Shown here piece by piece: positions 2,305 through 16,372 of a DNA stretch of 24,482 bases. Position 1 is the stretch's first letter; each line of letters begins with the position of its first letter. Origin of the DNA: a virus. The stretch lies in the IMG/VR virus record IMGVR_UViG_3300037587_000518, positions 1 to 24,482 of that record. The stretch is one strand, 5' to 3'. Below the pieces are notes generated by a model. It did not search any database and was not told the origin of the DNA. It saw only the letters and a list, made by a program, of their open reading frames with translations. The position numbers and the translations under genes were made by a program.

Positions 2305-3942
2305 CTACCTGTAGGCTCTGGCTTGCTGTCTTGTGGATAATAACATGTTTATGGCGGACTGCCCTGGTCTTGTGATTGCGATCTCCACTGCGTCGAGAAG
2401 GTTGTCTACCTGATCATCGAACGCATGAGAGTCATCAGCCGTAAACCCTGCGCACTCTGCTACGAAGTCCAAAACCCACGGCTCGCCGACAGGAAGGCAG
2501 ACTTTGCCCATAGCTACCTGCGGGGCGGCATCCATTGCCCGAGTCAGCTTATCCTGCCCCGCTCCGCGCTGAACTGCGGTAATGGGTAGAGGGGAGTGCC
2601 TAGCAGATTCTTGGATCAATCCTGAGCCTGATACCTTATCCTCCACGTGCACGCTTCGCAATATACCGTGGTTGCCGGTTGTGTTCAGATCCCAATGCTT
2701 CTGTATGAAGTTGATGAAATTGACCCTTAGCTCTGGCGCCTCCCATTTGGCGCGAACAAGATCGAGCAAATAGAGCTTATTTTGCCATACGCCCCAGGCG
2801 CAGAAAACAGTGTAATCGTTGTGGGTCTTTACCTTCTGGGCTGTGTCTGCGGTGATGAACCGGTATTCCATCGTAATCGGACGATCAACATCACCTCCAT
2901 CGCCATACCATACGAACTTGTCGGGGTTGATGATCTGGCCACCGAGGGTAATCGGGGCCTGTTGATACTGACTCAGGAAGGTGTAAGGGTTGGACTGCCA
3001 CAGATCGAATAATTGCTCAACCCCTTCAAAGGTTGGCCAGAACGATCGGTAGCCATCAATGGCTGGGGAGTCTTTTATATCGGACCAGCATTTATCTTTT
3101 ATCCACTGAGGCAGGCCCTGCAGGTACTCATCGTTAATCAGGGCAGGAACCTTGATCAGGTCGAATTTTATACCCATGCCGCCAGACATCATAAAGCCTG
3201 TCGCGTCGTTGACATGAAGGCGTTGCTGGACCGCAATTATCGGAGTCGGGTGAGCCTTTGACTTATCAGCCCTCCTTGATCGGATGGTATCAACCAGGAG
3301 CCTGTTTGCCGCTTCTCTCCTGACCGAGCTAAACATGTCATTCGGCTTCGATGCGTCATCGAGCAGGATTGCCCCGCTAAACTCAGGGCCAGGATAACCA
3401 CCCCGCGATCCGGTCACCTGTCCGCCTGATGACTTCGACACAATCTCAAAAAGTGACTTTCCGTCATCGTCAACCAAGATCCATTCGTCAGCGGCGTCTA
3501 CTCCGAAAGTGGACGGCCACAGCCCCTGATACTCTCTCGACTTGATCAAATCACGAACGCGGCGAGAGTTACGCTTAACTAGGCTGTCGGCATAGGACAG
3601 GGACAGAAATCGAGAGCGCTTCCCGGATAGAGTGCGCTTAACATTAGCATAAGCCGGCAGAGCTATAGAGATCTGCTCGGTCTTGCCGGATCCCGGCGGA
3701 ACGTTGAGTATCACATTGCGTCGCTTGCCAGAAAACACATCATCGACGACAGCCGCGACCAGGCGGGAGTGCCAATTAACGGCCATTCTCTCGCCCTGCT
3801 GGAACTGCCAGAATATACGCTGAAAGGTTAGAAAATCATGCTCGGACAAGGCTTTGGTTGCCTGCCTTTGCTGCTCAGTCATGGCTTCCCAATCGAGTAA
3901 GTCAGCCACCAGAAGCAACCCCATGGTTCTGGTGGAATCCAT
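2305..3942 (-). CDS. Terminase large subunit (packaging ATPase and nuclease)
   Basis: The product has 545 aa from the chosen start. The ATPase domain has a Walker A motif VPPGSGKTE (about residues 81-89) and a Walker B motif AILLDD (about 191-196). The C-terminal RNase H-like nuclease domain shows FITADTAQK (about 362-370) and the acidic DDQVDNLLDA (about 509-518). TerL cuts concatemeric DNA and pumps it through the portal. The open frame extends further upstream to 3993, but that part lies inside the HNH gene and looks like an out-of-frame shadow. I prefer ATG 3942 (MDSTRTMG) or ATG 3924 (MGLLLVAD); neither has a strong ribosome binding site, so translation may depend on ribosomes finishing the HNH gene at 3902. 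TerS lies 3.7 kb away, which is unusual. Confidence 0.93.
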   Translation of the reverse strand: MDSTRTMGLLLVADLLDWEAMTEQQRQATKALSEHDFLTFQRIFWQFQQGERMAVNWHSRLVAAVVDDVFSGKRRNVILNVPPGSGKTEQISIALPAYANVKRTLSGKRSRFLSLSYADSLVKRNSRRVRDLIKSREYQGLWPSTFGVDAADEWILVDDDGKSLFEIVSKSSGGQVTGSRGGYPGPEFSGAILLDDASKPNDMFSSVRREAANRLLVDTIRSRRADKSKAHPTPIIAVQQRLHVNDATGFMMSGGMGIKFDLIKVPALINDEYLQGLPQWIKDKCWSDIKDSPAIDGYRSFWPTFEGVEQLFDLWQSNPYTFLSQYQQAPITLGGQIINPDKFVWYGDGGDVDRPITMEYRFITADTAQKVKTHNDYTVFCAWGVWQNKLYLLDLVRAKWEAPELRVNFINFIQKHWDLNTTGNHGILRSVHVEDKVSGSGLIQESARHSPLPITAVQRGAGQDKLTRAMDAAPQVAMGKVCLPVGEPWVLDFVAECAGFTADDSHAFDDQVDNLLDAVEIAITRPGQSAINMLLSTRQQARAYR

Positions 3943-4465
3943 GCCTGAGTTCGTAATTCGTTCTTTCCTCGCTTGCTGCGGATAACGAATCAAATCTACC
4001 TAAATTAACTGTTCGCCCATCAAGTTCAGATTTTGCTGACCACTTGCCTCTTGATCTGTCCCATCCAATGCCAATCACGCCAGATGTATTGTTTCTTGGA
4101 AGTGACATATTGCGCCCATTCTGCTTATGCGATACATCTCTGAGATTGGAAATTCTATTGTTGGCAGGATCGTGATCGATGTGATCTATTTCTTCCTCAG
4201 GCCATTCGCCGGTGTGCATCAGCCAAGCAACACGATGGGCCTGGTAGCTCTTATTTGCTATGGCCAATCGGATATAACCGGTCTTCATTAGATTGCCTGC
4301 AGTCTTGCCAGCGCATCGGCTATTCCACCCCTTGTCCTGCTGCTTCAGAACGGGACGGGGCTTCCATGTGATTATTCCAGTTCCTGGGTTGTAATCTAGA
4401 AGGGATCTTGCCAGCTCAGCTGAAACTAAGGATTCTTTGCGGATTGTAGCGGGGGATTTTGGCAT
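3902..4465 (-). CDS. AP2-domain HNH homing endonuclease (copy 1, upstream of TerL)
   Basis: The product has 187 aa. The N-terminal half carries the HNH nuclease core: HRVAWLMHTGEWP, then EEEIDHIDHDPANNRISNLR, with His/Asn metal and catalytic positions around residues 76-110. The C-terminal half is an AP2-like DNA-binding domain beginning NNTSGVIGIGWDRSRGKW. The C-terminus HGFHQNHG is shared with the second copy in this window. Free-standing enzymes of this kind cut alleles lacking the gene and spread by repair. The ribosome binding site GGAG lies 7 nt before the ATG and can pair with the upstream leader (see the RNA feature). The 3' end overlaps the start of the TerL gene in the +1 frame. The gene is smaller and more A+T rich than terminase or portal, suggesting recent arrival. 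Confidence 0.9.
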   Translation of the reverse strand: MPKSPATIRKESLVSAELARSLLDYNPGTGIITWKPRPVLKQQDKGWNSRCAGKTAGNLMKTGYIRLAIANKSYQAHRVAWLMHTGEWPEEEIDHIDHDPANNRISNLRDVSHKQNGRNMSLPRNNTSGVIGIGWDRSRGKWSAKSELDGRTVNLGRFDSLSAASEERTNYELRHGFHQNHGVASGG

Positions 4466-4762: not shown

Positions 4763-5260
4763 TCAGAACGGGATACGGTCAAGCGGGTTGCCAGTATGCG
4801 GATCGAACTTAGCCTGGATTTGCTCCGCATGCGGCTGTTGAGCCTGACGATTATCTTGCGCCTGATTGATTTGCTGAGGATGAGCGGATGACTGGGTCTG
4901 TGCGTCATCCTGCCTTCCATCAAGCATCTGCATCTGGCCGCCGAACCCATCCATCACGATCTCGGTGGTGTAGCGATCCGCGCCACTCTGATCCTGCCAT
5001 TTGCGGGTTCGCAGAGCTCCTTCAACATAGATCTTGCTGCCCTTGCGGCAATACTGGCCGACAATCTCACCAAGCTTCCCGAAGAAAACAACCCGGTGCC
5101 ACTCGGTACGCTCTTGCGGCTGCCCGCTTTCCTTATCCTTCCAGCTTTCACTGGTGGCAAGGGTGATATTCGCCACCGCGTTGCCGTTTGGCATATATTT
5201 AACCTCGGGGTCTTGCCCCAGGTTGCCGATCAGGATTACTTTGTTTACTCCTCGTGCCAT
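4763..5260 (-). CDS. ssb: Single-stranded DNA-binding protein
   Basis: The product has 165 aa, close to the usual bacterial SSB length. It begins [21 protein letters not shown] and contains the OB-fold signature [11 protein letters not shown], then [21 protein letters not shown] and [18 protein letters not shown] (about residues 30-90). A glutamine-rich, disordered linker (about 115-150) leads to the tail NPLDRIPF. That keeps the IPF tip that recruits repair and replication proteins but is less acidic than the usual DDDIPF. SSB coats single-stranded DNA during replication and RecT-type recombination. The ribosome binding site is GGAGAG. Its place on the packaging strand between the terminase genes, rather than with recT and the helicase on the plus strand, is unusual. 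Confidence 0.95.
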
Positions 5261-7642: not shown

Positions 7643-8035
7643 CTAAAGCTTGTCGGCCACATCTGAGAGAGCCTGGGCATCGACAACGGCATGCTTGTGC
7701 TCTTGCGGGCCACCGCCTGGACCAGTGATCTCCTGGCGATCGGTCCAATTGAAATTCTTCAGCGCGAAGATGTGTCCGGCTCCGGCTCCTTTGGCAAGAC
7801 CATTCTCGTAAGCGTTCTCAACCAGGAAGCTGGCCCTTTTTACAGAGCAAGAAAACCCGTCCCTTTTCGCATAGTCATAAAACGATTGCCGACTAGCAAA
7901 ACCGAGGTGCAAAGCCATTCCTGTAATCGTCAGCGGCTCCTTGTCATCGAAGCATGCTAGGACGTATTCATCAACAAGATCATCAAACTGATCTGGTGAA
8001 TCAATAATCCTTGGCCGACCGTTTACGAGAGGCAT
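7643..8035 (-). CDS. Terminase small subunit / DNA-packaging protein
   Basis: The product has 130 aa. The N-terminus GRPRIIDSPDQFDDLVDEYV, followed by ITGMALHLGFASRQSFYDYAK (about residues 37-57), gives a helix-turn-helix-like DNA-binding region. The segment FSCSVKRASFLVENAYENGL leads to IFALKNFNWTDRQEITG (about 88-105), a hallmark of the Terminase_5-like DNA-packaging protein group. The protein recognises packaging sites and recruits TerL. Its ATG overlaps the stop of the preceding 55-aa gene (TAATG). A strong promoter begins 3 nt after its stop. It is separated from TerL by about 3.7 kb of small genes, ssb and an HNH gene, unlike the usual adjacent arrangement. Confidence 0.85.
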   Translation of the reverse strand: MPLVNGRPRIIDSPDQFDDLVDEYVLACFDDKEPLTITGMALHLGFASRQSFYDYAKRDGFSCSVKRASFLVENAYENGLAKGAGAGHIFALKNFNWTDRQEITGPGGGPQEHKHAVVDAQALSDVADKL

Positions 8036-8202
8036 TACTTGTCCTCGGCAACCAAGCGGAACTTTTTGGTCGGGTGCTTCTGGGTGAGGATGTAAGACGG
8101 CTTGCCTTCGATGGCCATGCTGAGCAGATCCTGGCAGCCTTCGCGCATAATCTCGCGGACTGTCTTGGCGTTGTTTCCTCGTTCGATCTTAGGTTTTGAC
8201 AT
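8035..8202 (-). CDS. Small basic phage protein, 55 aa, upstream of TerS
   Basis: The ORF begins MSKPKIERGNNAKTVREIMR. It is basic and compact: a helical N-terminal half, then GKPSYILTQKHPTKKFRLV. A good ribosome binding site (AGGGA, 7 nt before the ATG) and the one-base TAATG overlap with TerS support it. It is the first gene after the promoter at 8262-8235. No family recognised. Position suggests a role in packaging or early control, but this is inference only. Confidence 0.7.
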   Translation of the reverse strand: MSKPKIERGNNAKTVREIMREGCQDLLSMAIEGKPSYILTQKHPTKKFRLVAEDK

Positions 8203-8234
8203 AATGATTCCCTGGTGTTGGTTCGGTCAGTCAA

Positions 8235-8262
8235 TTGTTACCCATCAGCACTCCCTCGTCAA
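8235..8262 (-). promoter_or_regulatory. Promoter for the leftward packaging unit
   Basis: TTGACG (8262-8257), a 16-nt spacer and TAACAA (8240-8235). The -35 and spacer match the other promoters of the window; the -10 is weaker. The transcript would start about 8228, roughly 26 nt before the 55-aa gene. Confidence 0.55.
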
Positions 8263-8295
8263 GCCTTGTGAGTGTTTTTTGAGTCTGCCGATGGT

Positions 8296-8321
8296 TTGCC
8301 GCGCTTGCCGCAGCTTGCCGC
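8296..8321 (+). repeat. Three phased TTGCCGC heptamers (left outer array)
   Basis: Exact copies of TTGCCGC start at 8296, 8305 and 8315, spaced 9 and 10 bp, close to one turn of the helix, so they would face the same side of the DNA. They are the reverse complement of the GCGGCAA copies at 8614-8661. Confidence 0.8.
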
Positions 8322-8425
8322 AAAGAAGGGGGCATACGATTGATAATCATTCGCCCCTATAAGTAGTTGTTTTATAACAACAATAATAATAACAATATTC
8401 TATTATCTCCCTACTAATACCTATC

Positions 8426-8550
8426 TGCCCCTTTGCCCCTGGGTACTCTCCGTTTCTGATTTTCCTATTTCTTCAATTTAGTGCTTATAGAGCTCATTGG
8501 CATGCACTGGAGCATGTGGATATCGGCAGTCTTGCGGGGGCAAAGGGGCA
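8426..8550. repeat. 14-bp perfect inverted repeat of GGGGCAAA units (inner pair)
   Basis: TGCCCCTTTGCCCC at 8426-8439 is the exact reverse complement of GGGGCAAAGGGGCA at 8537-8550. The right arm is a perfect tandem of GGGGCAAA (8537-8544 and 8545-8552). The arms are 97 bp apart and lie inside the outer heptamer arrays. Confidence 0.85.
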
Positions 8551-8613
8551 AATGCTTGTGCATAAGTCCTATTCAGTTAATTAAATCAATGGCTTGAGTG
8601 GTTGTTTTTGCAG

Positions 8614-8661
8614 GCGGCAAGCAGGCGGCAAGGGGCGGCGAGCGCGGCAGATCGGCGGCAA
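8614..8661 (+). repeat. Five phased GCGGCAA-type repeats (right outer array)
   Basis: Copies start at 8614 (GCGGCAA), 8625 (GCGGCAA), 8635 (GCGGCG), 8644 (GCGGCAG) and 8655 (GCGGCAA). Start-to-start distances of 11, 10, 9 and 11 bp put them on one face of the helix. Orientation is opposite to the left array. Confidence 0.8.
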
Positions 8662-8798
8662 ACACGGGGCAAGTATGAAATATTGGTCACAAATCATCCA
8701 AAATAAAAGATAGTAGCTGATGCTAATATATATCTATCTCTGCGATATAGTTGCTGTATGCATCGCAATATCTCCTCTATTTTGCCTGGCCTTAGCCA

Positions 8799-8827
8799 TT
8801 GACTCATGCCGAACTATCTATTAGTCT
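8799..8827 (+). promoter_or_regulatory. Possible promoter of the rightward early unit
   Basis: TTGACT (8799-8804), a 17-nt spacer and TAGTCT (8822-8827). The -35 is good and the -10 weak. It is the best candidate before the gene at 8870. An imperfect dyad (GATAT..TTGC / GCAATATC) at about 8743-8772 just upstream could be an operator. Confidence 0.35.
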
Positions 8828-8869
8828 ATCTACAAATTAGGCATAATTGCGGGTAAAAAGGATATTCAA

Positions 8870-9082
8870 ATGACTTCAGAAGAAGAAAACGAGCGCATCA
8901 TGGAGCTGGTCGGAACTGACTTCCCCAGGATTGGAGACAAGAAAAGGAAGGAGTCAGCGGCCAAAGCAGTGGGCAAGAAGGCCGTTAAAAACATCATGAG
9001 GATGGCTGATGAATCAAAAAAGAGGCTGGCAGAGAAGCGCCGTGCGGAGAAGCGCAACCAAGAATCTAACGAGGAATTGTAA
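8870..9082 (+). CDS. Small, highly charged phage protein, 70 aa
   Basis: The protein begins MTSEEENERIMELVGTDFPR. Beyond residue 22 it is dominated by Lys, Arg and Glu with Ala (for example KKRLAEKRRAEKR), predicting one long basic helix that could bind nucleic acid. It is the first rightward gene after the repeat-rich control region, with AAAAAGGA before the ATG. Its TAA overlaps the next ATG (TAATG). No family recognised; first position beside the repeats makes it worth testing for DNA binding. Confidence 0.7.
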   Translation: MTSEEENERIMELVGTDFPRIGDKKRKESAAKAVGKKAVKNIMRMADESKKRLAEKRRAEKRNQESNEEL

Positions 9083-9306
9083 TGAGCGATGCTGATAATC
9101 AGCCGGTAGATAGAGCCGTATGGCCGTTTCGTGACATGGGCCTTGGAGAGGATGTCTTTTTCCCATTCGGTGAGCACACCCAAAGGGCAATAAGAGCTCA
9201 ATCCTACTGCCATATTTACGGACGCCAGTCAGGCAAATTATTCAGAACCCGAACCATAAGGCCAACTCACGGGGAGGCCGGGATCATGGTCCGGAGAGTC
9301 AAATGA
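9082..9306 (+). CDS. Small phage protein of the WPFxxM type, copy 1
   Basis: The product has 74 aa. The core reads VWPFRDMGLGEDVFFPF (about residues 13-29), a central SYCHIYGRQSGKLFRTRT and a C-terminal GIMVRRV. This W/Y-P-F..M..G.....F layout with a short beta hairpin end recurs in many uncharacterised small phage proteins. The next gene has the same layout, so the two are probably tandem paralogues. The start overlaps the preceding stop by one base. Function unknown. Confidence 0.7.
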   Translation: MSDADNQPVDRAVWPFRDMGLGEDVFFPFGEHTQRAIRAQSYCHIYGRQSGKLFRTRTIRPTHGEAGIMVRRVK

Positions 9307-9518
9307 GCGCGCCAAAGCGGCGAAGTAAGAGGTGGCCCTTCCAGAGAATGGCAGTCGGCGACTTTATTCAATACAGCCGAGACCAAGCCAACGATCGGGC
9401 AAATGCAGCCATGAAGTATATTCACACCTACATGCAAGGCAATGATAGAAAGTTCTCCTGTAAAACGCATAAAGCCGAATCAGGCGAGCGGGTCCTGGTA
9501 ATCACGCGCATCTCATAA
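9303..9518 (+). CDS. Small phage protein of the WPFxxM type, copy 2
   Basis: The product has 71 aa. It contains KRWPFQRMAVGDFIQYS (about residues 9-25), then a helix ANAAMKYIHTYMQGN and a final ERVLVITRI strand, matching the layout of the gene before it. It starts 4 nt before the end of that gene (ATGA overlap). The N-terminus is basic. Two diverged copies in a row suggest an old duplication. Function unknown. Confidence 0.7.
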   Translation: MSAPKRRSKRWPFQRMAVGDFIQYSRDQANDRANAAMKYIHTYMQGNDRKFSCKTHKAESGERVLVITRIS

Positions 9519-9538: not shown

Positions 9539-11182
9539 ATGCAGATGGTAACGAAGGAGATATTCTCCGAGTTCACGACGGCGATCATCGAGCGCGACGA
9601 GCTGGATATGCCGAATGACATTATTTTACGGATTTCCAGAAAGCACGGCATCCCCACTCATCAATTCATAATCGAATGTATCAATGATAAGACTCAACAC
9701 ATCGTCGGATGCAACGCCACTTCGGCTCTATACGACCAGGCTGAAGGCTACAGCTGGTGGGTTGACGTAAACGGCGCGGCAACCGATAAGCCGATCACCG
9801 CTGAAATCTGCGACGACAGTCTCCTGGGGCGGTTCGTCAATGCGATATCGATGGCCATCAAGTTCCCTGTTCAAACAGCATTTCTTCATGGCCTCTCAGT
9901 TGTCGCCTCTGCCATGACGCGCAGCTTTAGGTATGAGATGTATGGCGATGACTCAAACCCCGTGAATCTCTATACAGTGAGCGCTCAGCCGCCTTCAACC
10001 GGCAAGTCCGGCATCAATGGCTACCTAAGCCGTCCAGTTAGGCAAAGCTTTGCAGAGCTTAACAAGGATAACTCGGTGGAACGCCAGGTGATCGAGTCTC
10101 AGCTTGAAGGGATGGCCGCCGAGAGGAAGTCAGAATCGAACGAGACAGCCAAGGCAAATATCATCAGAGAGATGGCGGCCCTTCAGGAGAGGCATAAGAC
10201 CCTTCCGAATTACGTCTACTCGGTCGATGACGCCACCCCTGAGGCCATGGAGAAGATCGCTGCAAACCAGCTGGGCATGATCAACGTGATTTCTGATGAG
10301 GCGGATATCATCAACATCGTCCTGGGCTCGGTGTACTCCGATAAAAAGGGGAACAACTCTATTTTCCTGAAGGCGTTCGACGGCGGCCACCATTCGTCAG
10401 CTCGATCTACCCGGGATGGATATGAAGGGCCGGTATATGGCTGCTTTGCTGTTCTGGCGCAGGATGAGTCGGTCAACGCTATCCTTGAGGCCGGGCAGCT
10501 TGGCCGTGGGATATCGGAGCGCTTCCTGATCATGCGAGAGCCCAACATCCTTGGGACGCGGGATTTCACCGTTTATCATGCGCCGGATCCGGAGCTGGTA
10601 AGAAGCTATGAGCAGCTGGTCAACAACCTGGTTAGGGCTGAGCCGACCGTGCTGCGGTTTGATGATCAGTCGATGATTCTCATCCAGCAGTATCGCAACG
10701 GCCTGGAGAAGCGACTGGCGGACGGTGGAGAGTACAGCAACTCAATGCTGCGCGGAACTCTTGGAAAGGCGGATAAGCAAATCTGTAAAATCTCATGCGT
10801 TCTGCATGGCGTCGATAACTTTCAGTTGTCATCGTCTGCGTCATCAAGGATCAAGCCGGAGACTGTAGAGCGTGCGATCGCCATGTATGATCAGCTCAAG
10901 GATGCCTATGTAAGGGCCACCGATAGCCAGGGTTATGCAGGCAACGGGGCTGCTGTGAAAGTCCTGATCGATAATCTGAGAAAGTTCGCCGATGATGGCA
11001 CGCTCGGAATAAATGTGCGCAAGCTGGCTCGGACCGTCGAGAAGTCATCCCTGTTTACCAACACATCAAAGCCCACGAAATACATCAGAGAAACGTGCCT
11101 CCCGGAGCTGGTGAAACTTGGGTTTATTGCCGTGCTGGGTGACAAGATATTTATCAACCCAAAGATCAACATAGGCGCTTGA
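9539..11182 (+). CDS. DUF3987-like (YfjI-type) replication-associated ATPase
   Basis: The product has 547 aa. A P-loop PPSTGKSG (about residues 151-158) follows NLYTVSAQ, and ISDEAD (about 251-256) serves as the Walker B region; both are in the places expected for DUF3987 proteins, which often replace or accompany primase/helicase genes in phages and mobile elements. The segment GQLGRGISERFLIMRE (around 320-335) also fits. The C-terminal 100 residues look like a winged-helix region (VRKLARTVEKS, YIRETCLPELVKLGFI). It probably acts in initiating or driving phage DNA replication; the exact activity is not established for the family. ATG 9539 is used; ATG 9545 is possible. Confidence 0.72.
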   Translation: MQMVTKEIFSEFTTAIIERDELDMPNDIILRISRKHGIPTHQFIIECINDKTQHIVGCNATSALYDQAEGYSWWVDVNGAATDKPITAEICDDSLLGRFVNAISMAIKFPVQTAFLHGLSVVASAMTRSFRYEMYGDDSNPVNLYTVSAQPPSTGKSGINGYLSRPVRQSFAELNKDNSVERQVIESQLEGMAAERKSESNETAKANIIREMAALQERHKTLPNYVYSVDDATPEAMEKIAANQLGMINVISDEADIINIVLGSVYSDKKGNNSIFLKAFDGGHHSSARSTRDGYEGPVYGCFAVLAQDESVNAILEAGQLGRGISERFLIMREPNILGTRDFTVYHAPDPELVRSYEQLVNNLVRAEPTVLRFDDQSMILIQQYRNGLEKRLADGGEYSNSMLRGTLGKADKQICKISCVLHGVDNFQLSSSASSRIKPETVERAIAMYDQLKDAYVRATDSQGYAGNGAAVKVLIDNLRKFADDGTLGINVRKLARTVEKSSLFTNTSKPTKYIRETCLPELVKLGFIAVLGDKIFINPKINIGA

Positions 11183-11481: not shown

Positions 11482-11571
11482 ACCGGGGTAGCTCAGAGGT
11501 AGAGCGGCTGTCATTAGTCAGCAGGTTTAGGCCGTTGAAGGACGCTGGTTCGAATCCAGCCCCCGGCACCA
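11482..11571 (+). tRNA. Class II tRNA-like gene, possibly tRNA-Leu(UAG); degenerate anticodon arm
   Basis: The acceptor 5' strand ACCGGGG (11482-11488) pairs with CCCCGGC (11561-11567) except for A1-C72. The D arm is GCTC/GAGC (11491-11505). The T arm GCTGG-TTCGAAT-CCAGC (11544-11560) is perfect, and CCA is encoded (11569-11571). The 87 nt before CCA implies a long variable arm of about 19-20 nt, as in Leu or Ser tRNAs. The anticodon arm is poor: the only alignment with U33 gives TAG as anticodon, with a mismatch and a wobble in the stem and a U at 37. The more stable fold (GCTG/CAGC) leaves an 8-nt loop. It could be a functional phage tRNA, a decaying one or a tRNA mimic. Confidence 0.7.
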
Positions 11572-14034: not shown

Positions 14035-14613
14035 ATGAATCGCAATGCGCGTCTCCGTCTAAAGAAAGAATCCTTGCTTCCGTACAGCTTAGCCTCACAA
14101 CTCCTTGACTGTAATCCCGTAACTGGCAATTTTGCCTGGAAGGCTCGTCAATCAGATACTCATGCTGGAAAGATGTTTGCAGGGAGGTACTACGGGCTTA
14201 ATCCAGGGTCTCTGATACCTTGTGGATATATATCAATAATGGTAAACGGCCATGCATATAAAGCACACAGGCTTGCTTGGCTTTTGCATTATGGTAAATG
14301 GCCAGATAACCAGATAGATCATAAAGATCAAATCAGATGTAACAATTGGATTTCTAATCTTCGTGAAGCCTCGCTTGAGGATAACGCCAGGAATCACTCT
14401 ATACAATCAAACAACAGCACGGGGGTTGTTGGGGTAAGCCTACACAAGGCTCTAAACAAATATTCGGCATATATAACCGTGTCTAAAAAAAGAATACACC
14501 TAGGCGTATTTGCCACGATAGAGGAAGCATCTGCCGCAAGAAAGTCAGCAGAAGTCCACCATGGGTTCCATGAAAACCATGGTAATAAAAAAACAACTAA
14601 ATACGAGCGATAA
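14035..14613 (+). CDS. AP2-domain HNH homing endonuclease (copy 2, upstream of helicase)
   Basis: The product has 192 aa. The HNH core is AYKAHRLAWLLHYGKWPDNQ and then IDHKDQIRCNNWISNLREAS (about residues 75-115). The AP2-like domain starts NNSTGVVGVSLHKALNKYSA (about 127-146). The C-terminus HGFHENHG matches copy 1. The N-terminal module (SLLPYSLASQLLDCNPVTGN) also parallels copy 1. The gene is clearly A+T richer than its neighbours, with many ATA and AGA codons, a mark of transfer. It separates the broken helicase start from the intact helicase; its stop is 1 nt before the helicase ATG. It probably cleaves helicase alleles lacking the insertion, an inference from position. Confidence 0.9.
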   Translation: MNRNARLRLKKESLLPYSLASQLLDCNPVTGNFAWKARQSDTHAGKMFAGRYYGLNPGSLIPCGYISIMVNGHAYKAHRLAWLLHYGKWPDNQIDHKDQIRCNNWISNLREASLEDNARNHSIQSNNSTGVVGVSLHKALNKYSAYITVSKKRIHLGVFATIEEASAARKSAEVHHGFHENHGNKKTTKYER

Positions 14614-14614
14614 T

Positions 14615-16372
14615 ATGGAAGCCATAAAAACACTCAGGGATTACCAGCAAACAGCCCACGACGACACCATTGATCATATGCGAAGCAAAGACGGAAGTGA
14701 CCCGGTAATAATCTCGGCTTCTGTTGGGGCTGGCAAAAGCCTTATGATCGCTTATGCGGCAAAGAATACCGCAGAGAAGGGCGGCAAGGTGATGGTTATT
14801 GCTCGCCAGGGTGAGCTTTGCGAACAGAATTCTGACGAAACGTGGGCTATAAATCTCAGCAACTCAAAGTTTTCAGCCAGCCTAAAGTGCAGGTCTACAC
14901 GTCATCCTGTTATTTTCGCCACCGAAGGAACGGTGAGCAGAGCGCTAGATAAAGAGCTTTCCGGCTACGCGCCCCACTTACTTCTGATCGATGAGGCTCA
15001 TCAAGCGGACTTCTCTAACGATGATTGCCAGTTTATGCGGATCATTAACAGGTTCCGGTTTATCAATCCTAAAATGAGGATCATCGGCTATACAGGATCG
15101 CCATTCAGAGGGACTGAATCAATTATCGGCCATTTCTGGAAGAAGAAGATTGCCGATATTTCTACGGAATTCCTAACCGATAACGGCTGGCTTACCCCCG
15201 CTCTATTTGGGTTTGCATCAGATAAAGATAAGGAATTTGATTTTTCTGGAGTTCAGATGAAATCAGGAACGATGGACTTTTCTGACGCGGATCTTCAGAA
15301 GGTTGTTGGTGAGGACGTAACCCTGACTCACGGAATCATGCAGGATGTTGTCGATCGATGCGCTGATAGGCTTGGGCTAATCATATTCGCAGCCACTCAA
15401 AGGCATACCCTGGAGATAAGAGAGGGCCTGATAAGAGCTGGTGTTACTGATGATCAGATGGGGATAATCACTGATAAAACGAAAACTTCAGAGAGGCGCG
15501 AAATACTATCCAGAGCTAAGATAGGGAAGTGCAAGTATCTGATTAATGTCTCGGTGCTTTCAACGGGTCTGAATATACCTCGTCTTGATACCGTTGTTTA
15601 TCTGAGGCCCATAGGGTCGCTTGTTTTGCTGATACAGACAATTGGCCGAGGCCTTAGGCTTTGCCCAGAGCTAGGCAAGACAGATTGCCTGGTCCTTGAC
15701 CATGCGGGAGTATTCGACCGCCTCGGCCACCTCTACGACTCCCCCATGCTAGAAGAGGCCCAGCTACAGAAGGCCAAGATTGACCACGATATGATCCAGT
15801 GTCCGAAGTGCGAGACAGAGAATAGCAAGTTCGCCAGGCGCTGTATGGGCAAAGATATGGAGCAGCCCGATCTGCGATGCGATTTCTTCTGGCAGTCTCA
15901 AAAGTGCAAGCAATGCGATTGGGAAAACGACATCTCGGCAGTCGAGTGCCGGAACCCCGGCTGCCGGCATGAGCTGCGCGACCCTAACGCCCAGCTGCTG
16001 CATAAGGCCTACTCTGACGATGAGATGGTGCCGGTGGTGAGCATGAAGATCACATCAACGAAAAATCGAGCGGTGATGGTTCAATATATCCTCCATCAGA
16101 AGCCCGAGAGCGGCTGGCCGACCGAATTCTATGCCGTGGAGAACGATAAGATGGTGCGAGTTTGGCGGGCCCGGTTCGTTTCCGCGCACGTTCGAGACCC
16201 GGCCTGGCGTTCAAGAGTCATGTCGATGCGGTCGGCAGAAACCATCGTCAAGAACCAGGCGGTTTTCGATGCTCCGACTCACATTGCATTCAGGGTCAAC
16301 GAGAAGGGGCACCACGTTGTCGGCCGCAAGCGATTCATCAGCGGCAGGGAGGAGGAGCAATCTAGTTCTTGA
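14615..16372 (+). CDS. DEAH-box superfamily 2 helicase with zinc-binding C-terminal region
   Basis: The product has 585 aa. An N-terminal Q-like motif (TLRDYQQ) is followed by motif I SVGAGKSL (about 36-43), motif II LLIDEAH (about 123-129), motif III YTGSPFRGT and motif VI QTIGRGLRL (about 340-348). Beyond about 395 are cysteine pairs CPKC, CKQC and CRNPGC, probable zinc ribbons. It unwinds or remodels nucleic acid during phage replication or recombination. I start at ATG 14615, since the open part upstream lies within the HNH gene; a weak GAG precedes it, so coupling with HNH translation is likely. The first two thirds look more A+T rich than the last third, suggesting that the 5' part came with the HNH gene by recombination. 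Confidence 0.88.
   Translation: MEAIKTLRDYQQTAHDDTIDHMRSKDGSDPVIISASVGAGKSLMIAYAAKNTAEKGGKVMVIARQGELCEQNSDETWAINLSNSKFSASLKCRSTRHPVIFATEGTVSRALDKELSGYAPHLLLIDEAHQADFSNDDCQFMRIINRFRFINPKMRIIGYTGSPFRGTESIIGHFWKKKIADISTEFLTDNGWLTPALFGFASDKDKEFDFSGVQMKSGTMDFSDADLQKVVGEDVTLTHGIMQDVVDRCADRLGLIIFAATQRHTLEIREGLIRAGVTDDQMGIITDKTKTSERREILSRAKIGKCKYLINVSVLSTGLNIPRLDTVVYLRPIGSLVLLIQTIGRGLRLCPELGKTDCLVLDHAGVFDRLGHLYDSPMLEEAQLQKAKIDHDMIQCPKCETENSKFARRCMGKDMEQPDLRCDFFWQSQKCKQCDWENDISAVECRNPGCRHELRDPNAQLLHKAYSDDEMVPVVSMKITSTKNRAVMVQYILHQKPESGWPTEFYAVENDKMVRVWRARFVSAHVRDPAWRSRVMSMRSAETIVKNQAVFDAPTHIAFRVNEKGHHVVGRKRFISGREEEQSSS

Follow-up and report, generated by a model that had tools for sequence, protein, structure and literature searches.

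The window, meaning the whole stretch of 24,482 nucleotides analysed here (the virus record IMGVR_UViG_3300037587_000518), contains a non-coding region between two divergent gene units, bounded by the gene at 8202 on the minus strand and the gene at 8870 on the plus strand. Direct reading and a pattern search located ten GSGGCAA-type heptamers in this region, arranged in inverted arrays that lie 0.87–1.24 kb upstream of a DUF3987 gene. The genes for RecT and a YqaJ exonuclease are also found on the rightward side, and the surroundings of the arrays are an early replication/recombination module. The features are as follows.

4763–5260, leftward side: SSB
7643–8035, leftward side, 260 bp left of the arrays: small terminase (family match to PF16677 and PHROG 606)
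8035–8202, minus strand: 55-aa protein, first gene of the leftward unit; without a match in family scans, with a homologue recognized by eye in the relative L003
8296–8321, minus strand: left iteron array, three GCGGCAA units (TTGCCGC on the plus strand at 8296, 8305 and 8315; spacing 9 and 10)
8360–8419: AT-rich core, candidate unwinding element
8426–8439, minus strand: inner left arm, TGCCCCTTTGCCCC, with GGGGCAA-type units
8537–8553, plus strand: inner right arm, GGGGCAAAGGGGCAAAT
8557–8565, minus strand: single perfect DnaA-box match (TTWTNCACA), TTATGCACA, which could be chance
8584–8596, plus strand: IHF-consensus-like match, AATCAATGGCTTG, which could be chance
8614–8672, plus strand: right iteron array, GCGGCAA at 8614, 8625 and 8655, GCGGCGA at 8636, GCGGCAG at 8645 and GGGGCAA at 8666
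8870–9082, plus strand: basic 70-aa protein (pI 9.6), first gene of the rightward unit
9082–9306 and 9303–9518, plus strand: two adjacent related small basic proteins (family match to PHROG 28399)
9539–11182, plus strand: DUF3987 replicative-helicase-type protein (profile matches to PF13148 and PHROG 2373, 'DNA helicase')
10934–11179, plus strand: C-terminal region of the DUF3987 protein (residues 466–547, pI 9.8), of predicted winged-helix topology, the proposed iteron-reading domain
11482–11571: tRNA-Leu gene, just 3' of the DUF3987 gene
14561–16372, rightward side: DEAD-type helicase

The window also encodes two HNH endonucleases (3902–4465, minus strand, and 14035–14613, plus strand) that are related to each other and have AP2-like tails; the first overlaps the beginning of the ORF for the large terminase.

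A first-pass annotation of this DNA had described the left array as three TTGCCGC copies spaced 9–10 bp, and this was exactly what we found. Its five GCGGCAA-type copies on the right, 9–11 bp apart, held up in their spacing, while two of the five are imperfect and a sixth copy (GGGGCAA at 8666) follows them, giving distances of 11, 11, 9, 10 and 11 from 8614 to 8666. The exact 14-bp inner inverted repeat reported there, of GGGGCAAA type, was recovered as TGCCCCTTTGCCCC at 8426–8439 and GGGGCAAAGGGGCA at 8537–8550 and can be extended to 17 nt at 94%, and the outer arms form an imperfect 39-nt inverted repeat (8283–8321 and 8625–8663, 79% complementary). The heptamer clustering is far beyond chance: 400 bp hold 10 GSGGCAA-type sites, whereas the whole window, simulated 300 times with a first-order Markov model, reached 4 at most, and a local Markov model of the 670-bp region alone gave a mean of 0.33 sites and a maximum of 4 in 2000. 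An explanation of the repeats as coding sequence was rejected, since 8203–8869 is covered by no conserved gene, and Rfam revealed no RNA family in the array region.

No near-identical DNA was found in the phage collection. In the closest relative, L002, the helicase is 97% identical, and the left array and AT core have about 98% identity; in the right half identity has fallen to about 50%, and GCGGCAA units remain there at new positions and spacings. Because these units persist despite the drift, selection appears to act on the heptamer unit itself. A further relative, L003 (56%), has TTGCGGCA units spaced 10, shares the block CTATCTGCCYCKTTGCCYC of the inner left arm, and has its AT maximum between its repeats. 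The first-pass annotation had regarded the GCGGCAA and GGGGCAA units as two different repeat families in an unusual nesting, which the relatives contradict: L002 reads GCGGCAAAGCGGCAAAT where the window has GGGGCAAAGGGGCAAAT, so that both are best read as variants of a single degenerate family, and phages of this group ordinarily have nested or two-sided arrays. Like an iteron origin, the region thus carries several phased copies of one short word in non-coding DNA. The basic protein encoded at 8870, earlier suggested as a possible binder of the repeats, has lost ground, because L002 keeps the arrays yet lacks nearly all of this ORF; it is unlikely to be a universal binder and is not needed for the conserved arrangement.

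An A+T-rich stretch had been noted within the arrays, and it is indeed prominent: 8360–8419 is 80% AT, the highest 60-bp value of the 24.5-kb window, and sits between the arrays, where its composition makes it a candidate for the unwinding element that adjoins the repeats in iteron origins. A GC-skew profile, proposed earlier as a check, placed the cumulative minimum at 8474, the centre of the arrays. However, transcription also diverges here and divergence too gives GC-skew minima, so the skew alone is weak evidence. Only one consensus promoter-like site was found, at 8262–8234 on the minus strand, outside the arrays.

We then compared loci collected by the presence of DUF3987. Relatives have phased, mostly inverted short-repeat arrays around a local AT maximum at the same place by the DUF3987 helicase gene, built from lineage-specific words (GCGGCAA, TGGGGCA, GGGTAAT, TGTGTAAGA, CGGACAC, ATGACAC and GGGGGTA), as listed here.

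L215: TGCGGCA/TGGGGCA
L223: CGTGGGG(CA)
Escherichia phage SandraMuster Bas78 (BASEL collection; L239), 1531–1828: CGTGGGG(CA), seven CGTGGGG units in the same architecture
L231: TGGGGCA outside GGGTTAA
L216: GGGTAAT
L219 and Pseudoalteromonas phage TW1: TGTGTAAGA/CTTACAC
L232: CGGACAC, spacing 10 and 10
Vibrio phage K437b: ATGACAC, spacing 10 and 9
D93: GGGGGTA

L222, a locus close to L232, has the L232 word GTGYCCG in a degenerate form that drifts on each of the two arms. When 450-bp windows across 24 loci were scanned without bias for their most repeated 7-mer, the region upstream of the DUF3987 gene ranked first in 12 (one tie) and second in one more; the corresponding binomial test (12/23 loci, p = 3e-5) is indicative only, as it assumes a 15% background and the loci are related. 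Of 13 loci, 11 had their AT maximum between the arrays, and in the other two the AT peak there ranked second. Neighbouring same-strand units were mostly 8–12 bp apart, followed by 19–21 and 30–33 bp, which is consistent with one helix face, the uniform null of the spacing test being generous. The conservation expected by the first-pass annotation was therefore borne out for the array architecture, which recurs beside the same helicase gene, but not for the word, which differs by lineage. That the architecture is kept while the words turn over fits the expectation for iterons read by a co-evolving initiator. The claim is limited in extent, because no clear array was found upstream of DUF3987 in the T1-like L236, L240 and L242, nor in the more distant or other loci L218, L005, L006, L237 and L238, and a scan of the genome collection added only two distant loci, both without arrays. 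With these T1-like and distant exceptions, the arrays adjoin a replication helicase gene across relatives, again as in iteron origins. Because this architecture is kept beside the same helicase gene in many phages, the region is most likely where copying of the phage DNA starts.

The proximity of the small terminase gene raised the possibility that the arrays serve packaging, as a pac/cos recognition site to which its product binds. However, the arrays stay by the DUF3987 gene elsewhere; the terminase is 2.5 kb or more away in TW1, and in D93 no terminase is annotated in the 5 kb upstream of the helicase. Since terminase distance varies between loci in this way, we consider a packaging function very improbable.

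A more serious alternative is that the arrays are transcriptional operators through which a phage regulator switches both divergent early operons, and that they play no part in initiating replication. Their position between divergent units is that of a divergent promoter region, and small proteins do occur nearby: a small HTH protein is encoded between array and helicase in three relatives (L216, L215 and L219), that of L216 being of the YdaS/P22-Cro type by family scan and the other two alike by eye, and small basic proteins of PHROG 28399 occupy that place both in the window and in K437b. But the regulator type changes or is missing while the arrays stay, and family scans of the small proteins adjoining the arrays in the window gave no regulator match, so that the adjacent cognate repressor of an operator was not seen here. 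The sole promoter-like site lies outside the repeats, and an operator would explain neither why the AT maximum is enclosed nor why the arrays are linked to the helicase gene rather than to a regulator. Because regulator genes vary between lineages while the helicase and the AT core stay, a pure operator is the less likely explanation, and we judge it improbable. The first-pass annotation had named the region a candidate origin or master operator; the recurring architecture by the DUF3987 gene, the enclosed AT maximum and the GC-skew minimum at the centre now favour the first of these, and the second keeps some weight.

If the region is an origin, the DUF3987 protein is the best candidate for reading its iterons. 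An AlphaFold2 model built from 14 homologues (pLDDT 86) had MCM2-7/CMG subunits as its closest fold matches, which were weak (TM about 0.35, E 1e-4; about 10–13% identity). Residues 469–539 have the predicted topology H-E-H-H-H-E-E, and the winged helices of MCM4 and Orc were among the nearest matches of the C-terminal domain, the isolated domain reaching a best E of 0.017. As the MCM matches are weak and the isolated winged helix does no better than this, the support is one of fold, not of homology. A sequence search of solved structures found no replication helicase. Residues 452–543 also match a separate 179-aa family without assigned function, PHROG 7327, which may be the winged helix as a protein of its own. 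DUF3987 proteins have been predicted to be mobile-element helicases, and origin recognition has been proposed as a role of C-terminal WH domains (PMC5862659); moreover, in the SaPI and SCC Rep helicases the C-terminal domain binds the origin iterons (PMC7581432). The protein resembles the latter in its AAA+ helicase core (PF13148, PHROG 2373 and an MCM-like predicted fold) and, by prediction, in its C-terminal winged-helix domain (topology, wHTH neighbours and pI 9.8). On the strength of this analogy we propose it as the initiator, which would bind the iterons, melt the core and load at the origin.

The iterons of such an origin might instead be read by another protein, either a small early protein such as the PHROG 28399 pair (9082 and 9303) or a host factor, with DUF3987 recruited afterwards. 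In its favour, there is a single perfect DnaA box at 8557, and TTGCSGC arrays adjoin unrelated replication proteins in other phages. Among the matches listed in collection-wide scans for TTGCSGC triplets, most of which were set aside as codon-periodic repeats within genes, arrays lie beside replication genes in L007 (6197–6373), L048 (858–980) and L127 (372–555) and inside genes in L137, L165 and L015–L017. The replication genes at these arrays encode an AAA_25 ATPase (L007 and L048), a Prim-Pol/VapE helicase (L127) and replication-initiation proteins (for example L137); the loci were selected by the word, with no control word, and so speak for occurrence rather than enrichment. On the other hand, DUF3987 is the common replication gene of the compared loci, which were collected by it, while the intervening small genes differ by lineage (YdaS-like, HNH-related, PHROG 28399 or without a match), and a change of word between lineages disfavours one host factor. 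We regard a different reader as unlikely, although the arrays beside unrelated replication proteins make it more plausible.

We thus favour, with reasonable confidence, a model in which 8296–8672 is a theta-type origin for the DUF3987 protein. The MCM-like AAA+ helicase would use its C-terminal winged helix to bind the GSGGCAA iterons, and the two inverted, helically phased arrays would put an initiator assembly on each side of the AT-rich core (8360–8419). The core would then melt and two helicases would load facing each other, giving rise to bidirectional forks whose replisome would be completed by the phage SSB and host replication proteins. Iteron binding probably also autoregulates both divergent early operons. 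Of these steps, we infer the identity of the binding protein, the melting, the loading and the fork direction.

In oriLambda, the iterons of the O protein and an AT-rich region lie next to the initiator gene, and the present region is similar in having iterons beside an AT-rich element adjoining the gene of the proposed initiator. The lambda iterons are part of the O gene, whose product is not a helicase, whereas the arrays here are intergenic and inverted. Archaeal and eukaryotic MCM proteins provide the best fold match of the DUF3987 model, including the C-terminal winged helix, but to our knowledge cellular MCM does not read specific iterons. The SaPI/SCCmec origins (Rep, Cch and Cch2) have short iterons beside the gene for a self-loading helicase, which binds them through its C-terminal domain (PMC7581432), as is proposed here. 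However, their origin lies directly downstream of rep, while the arrays here are upstream, two-sided and inverted in a divergent intergenic region, and their helicases are of the DUF927 or D5-like families rather than DUF3987; the present system would therefore work like the SaPI/SCC type and is not filed as a member of it. The PLE satellite origin is likewise non-coding DNA with repeats, is required for replication and is bound by an encoded initiator, but that initiator is RepA_N rather than a helicase and the repeats are longer and semi-palindromic (PMC7145576).

More than 1,100 phage records contain a DUF3987 helicase, those of common T1-like coliphages among them. Lambda-type iterons are mentioned in a study in which origin repeats were not found in the T1-like coliphage TLS (PMC11447400), and the literature searched yielded no origin for the DUF3987 family; a two-sided iteron origin, as this most likely is, conserved across many DUF3987 phages was not previously described there. 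More broadly, we hold it an even question whether the DUF3987 family consists of MCM-like phage helicases that load themselves, act as initiators and read lineage-specific heptamers through the C-terminal winged helix, with the two-sided, inverted, AT-cored origins fixed and the word switching. The fixed architecture with changing words offers a concrete, testable initiator–origin pair, for which Bas78 is a convenient test system of the array architecture, and, if the model is true, these phages would form a natural series for studying the evolution of origin specificity.
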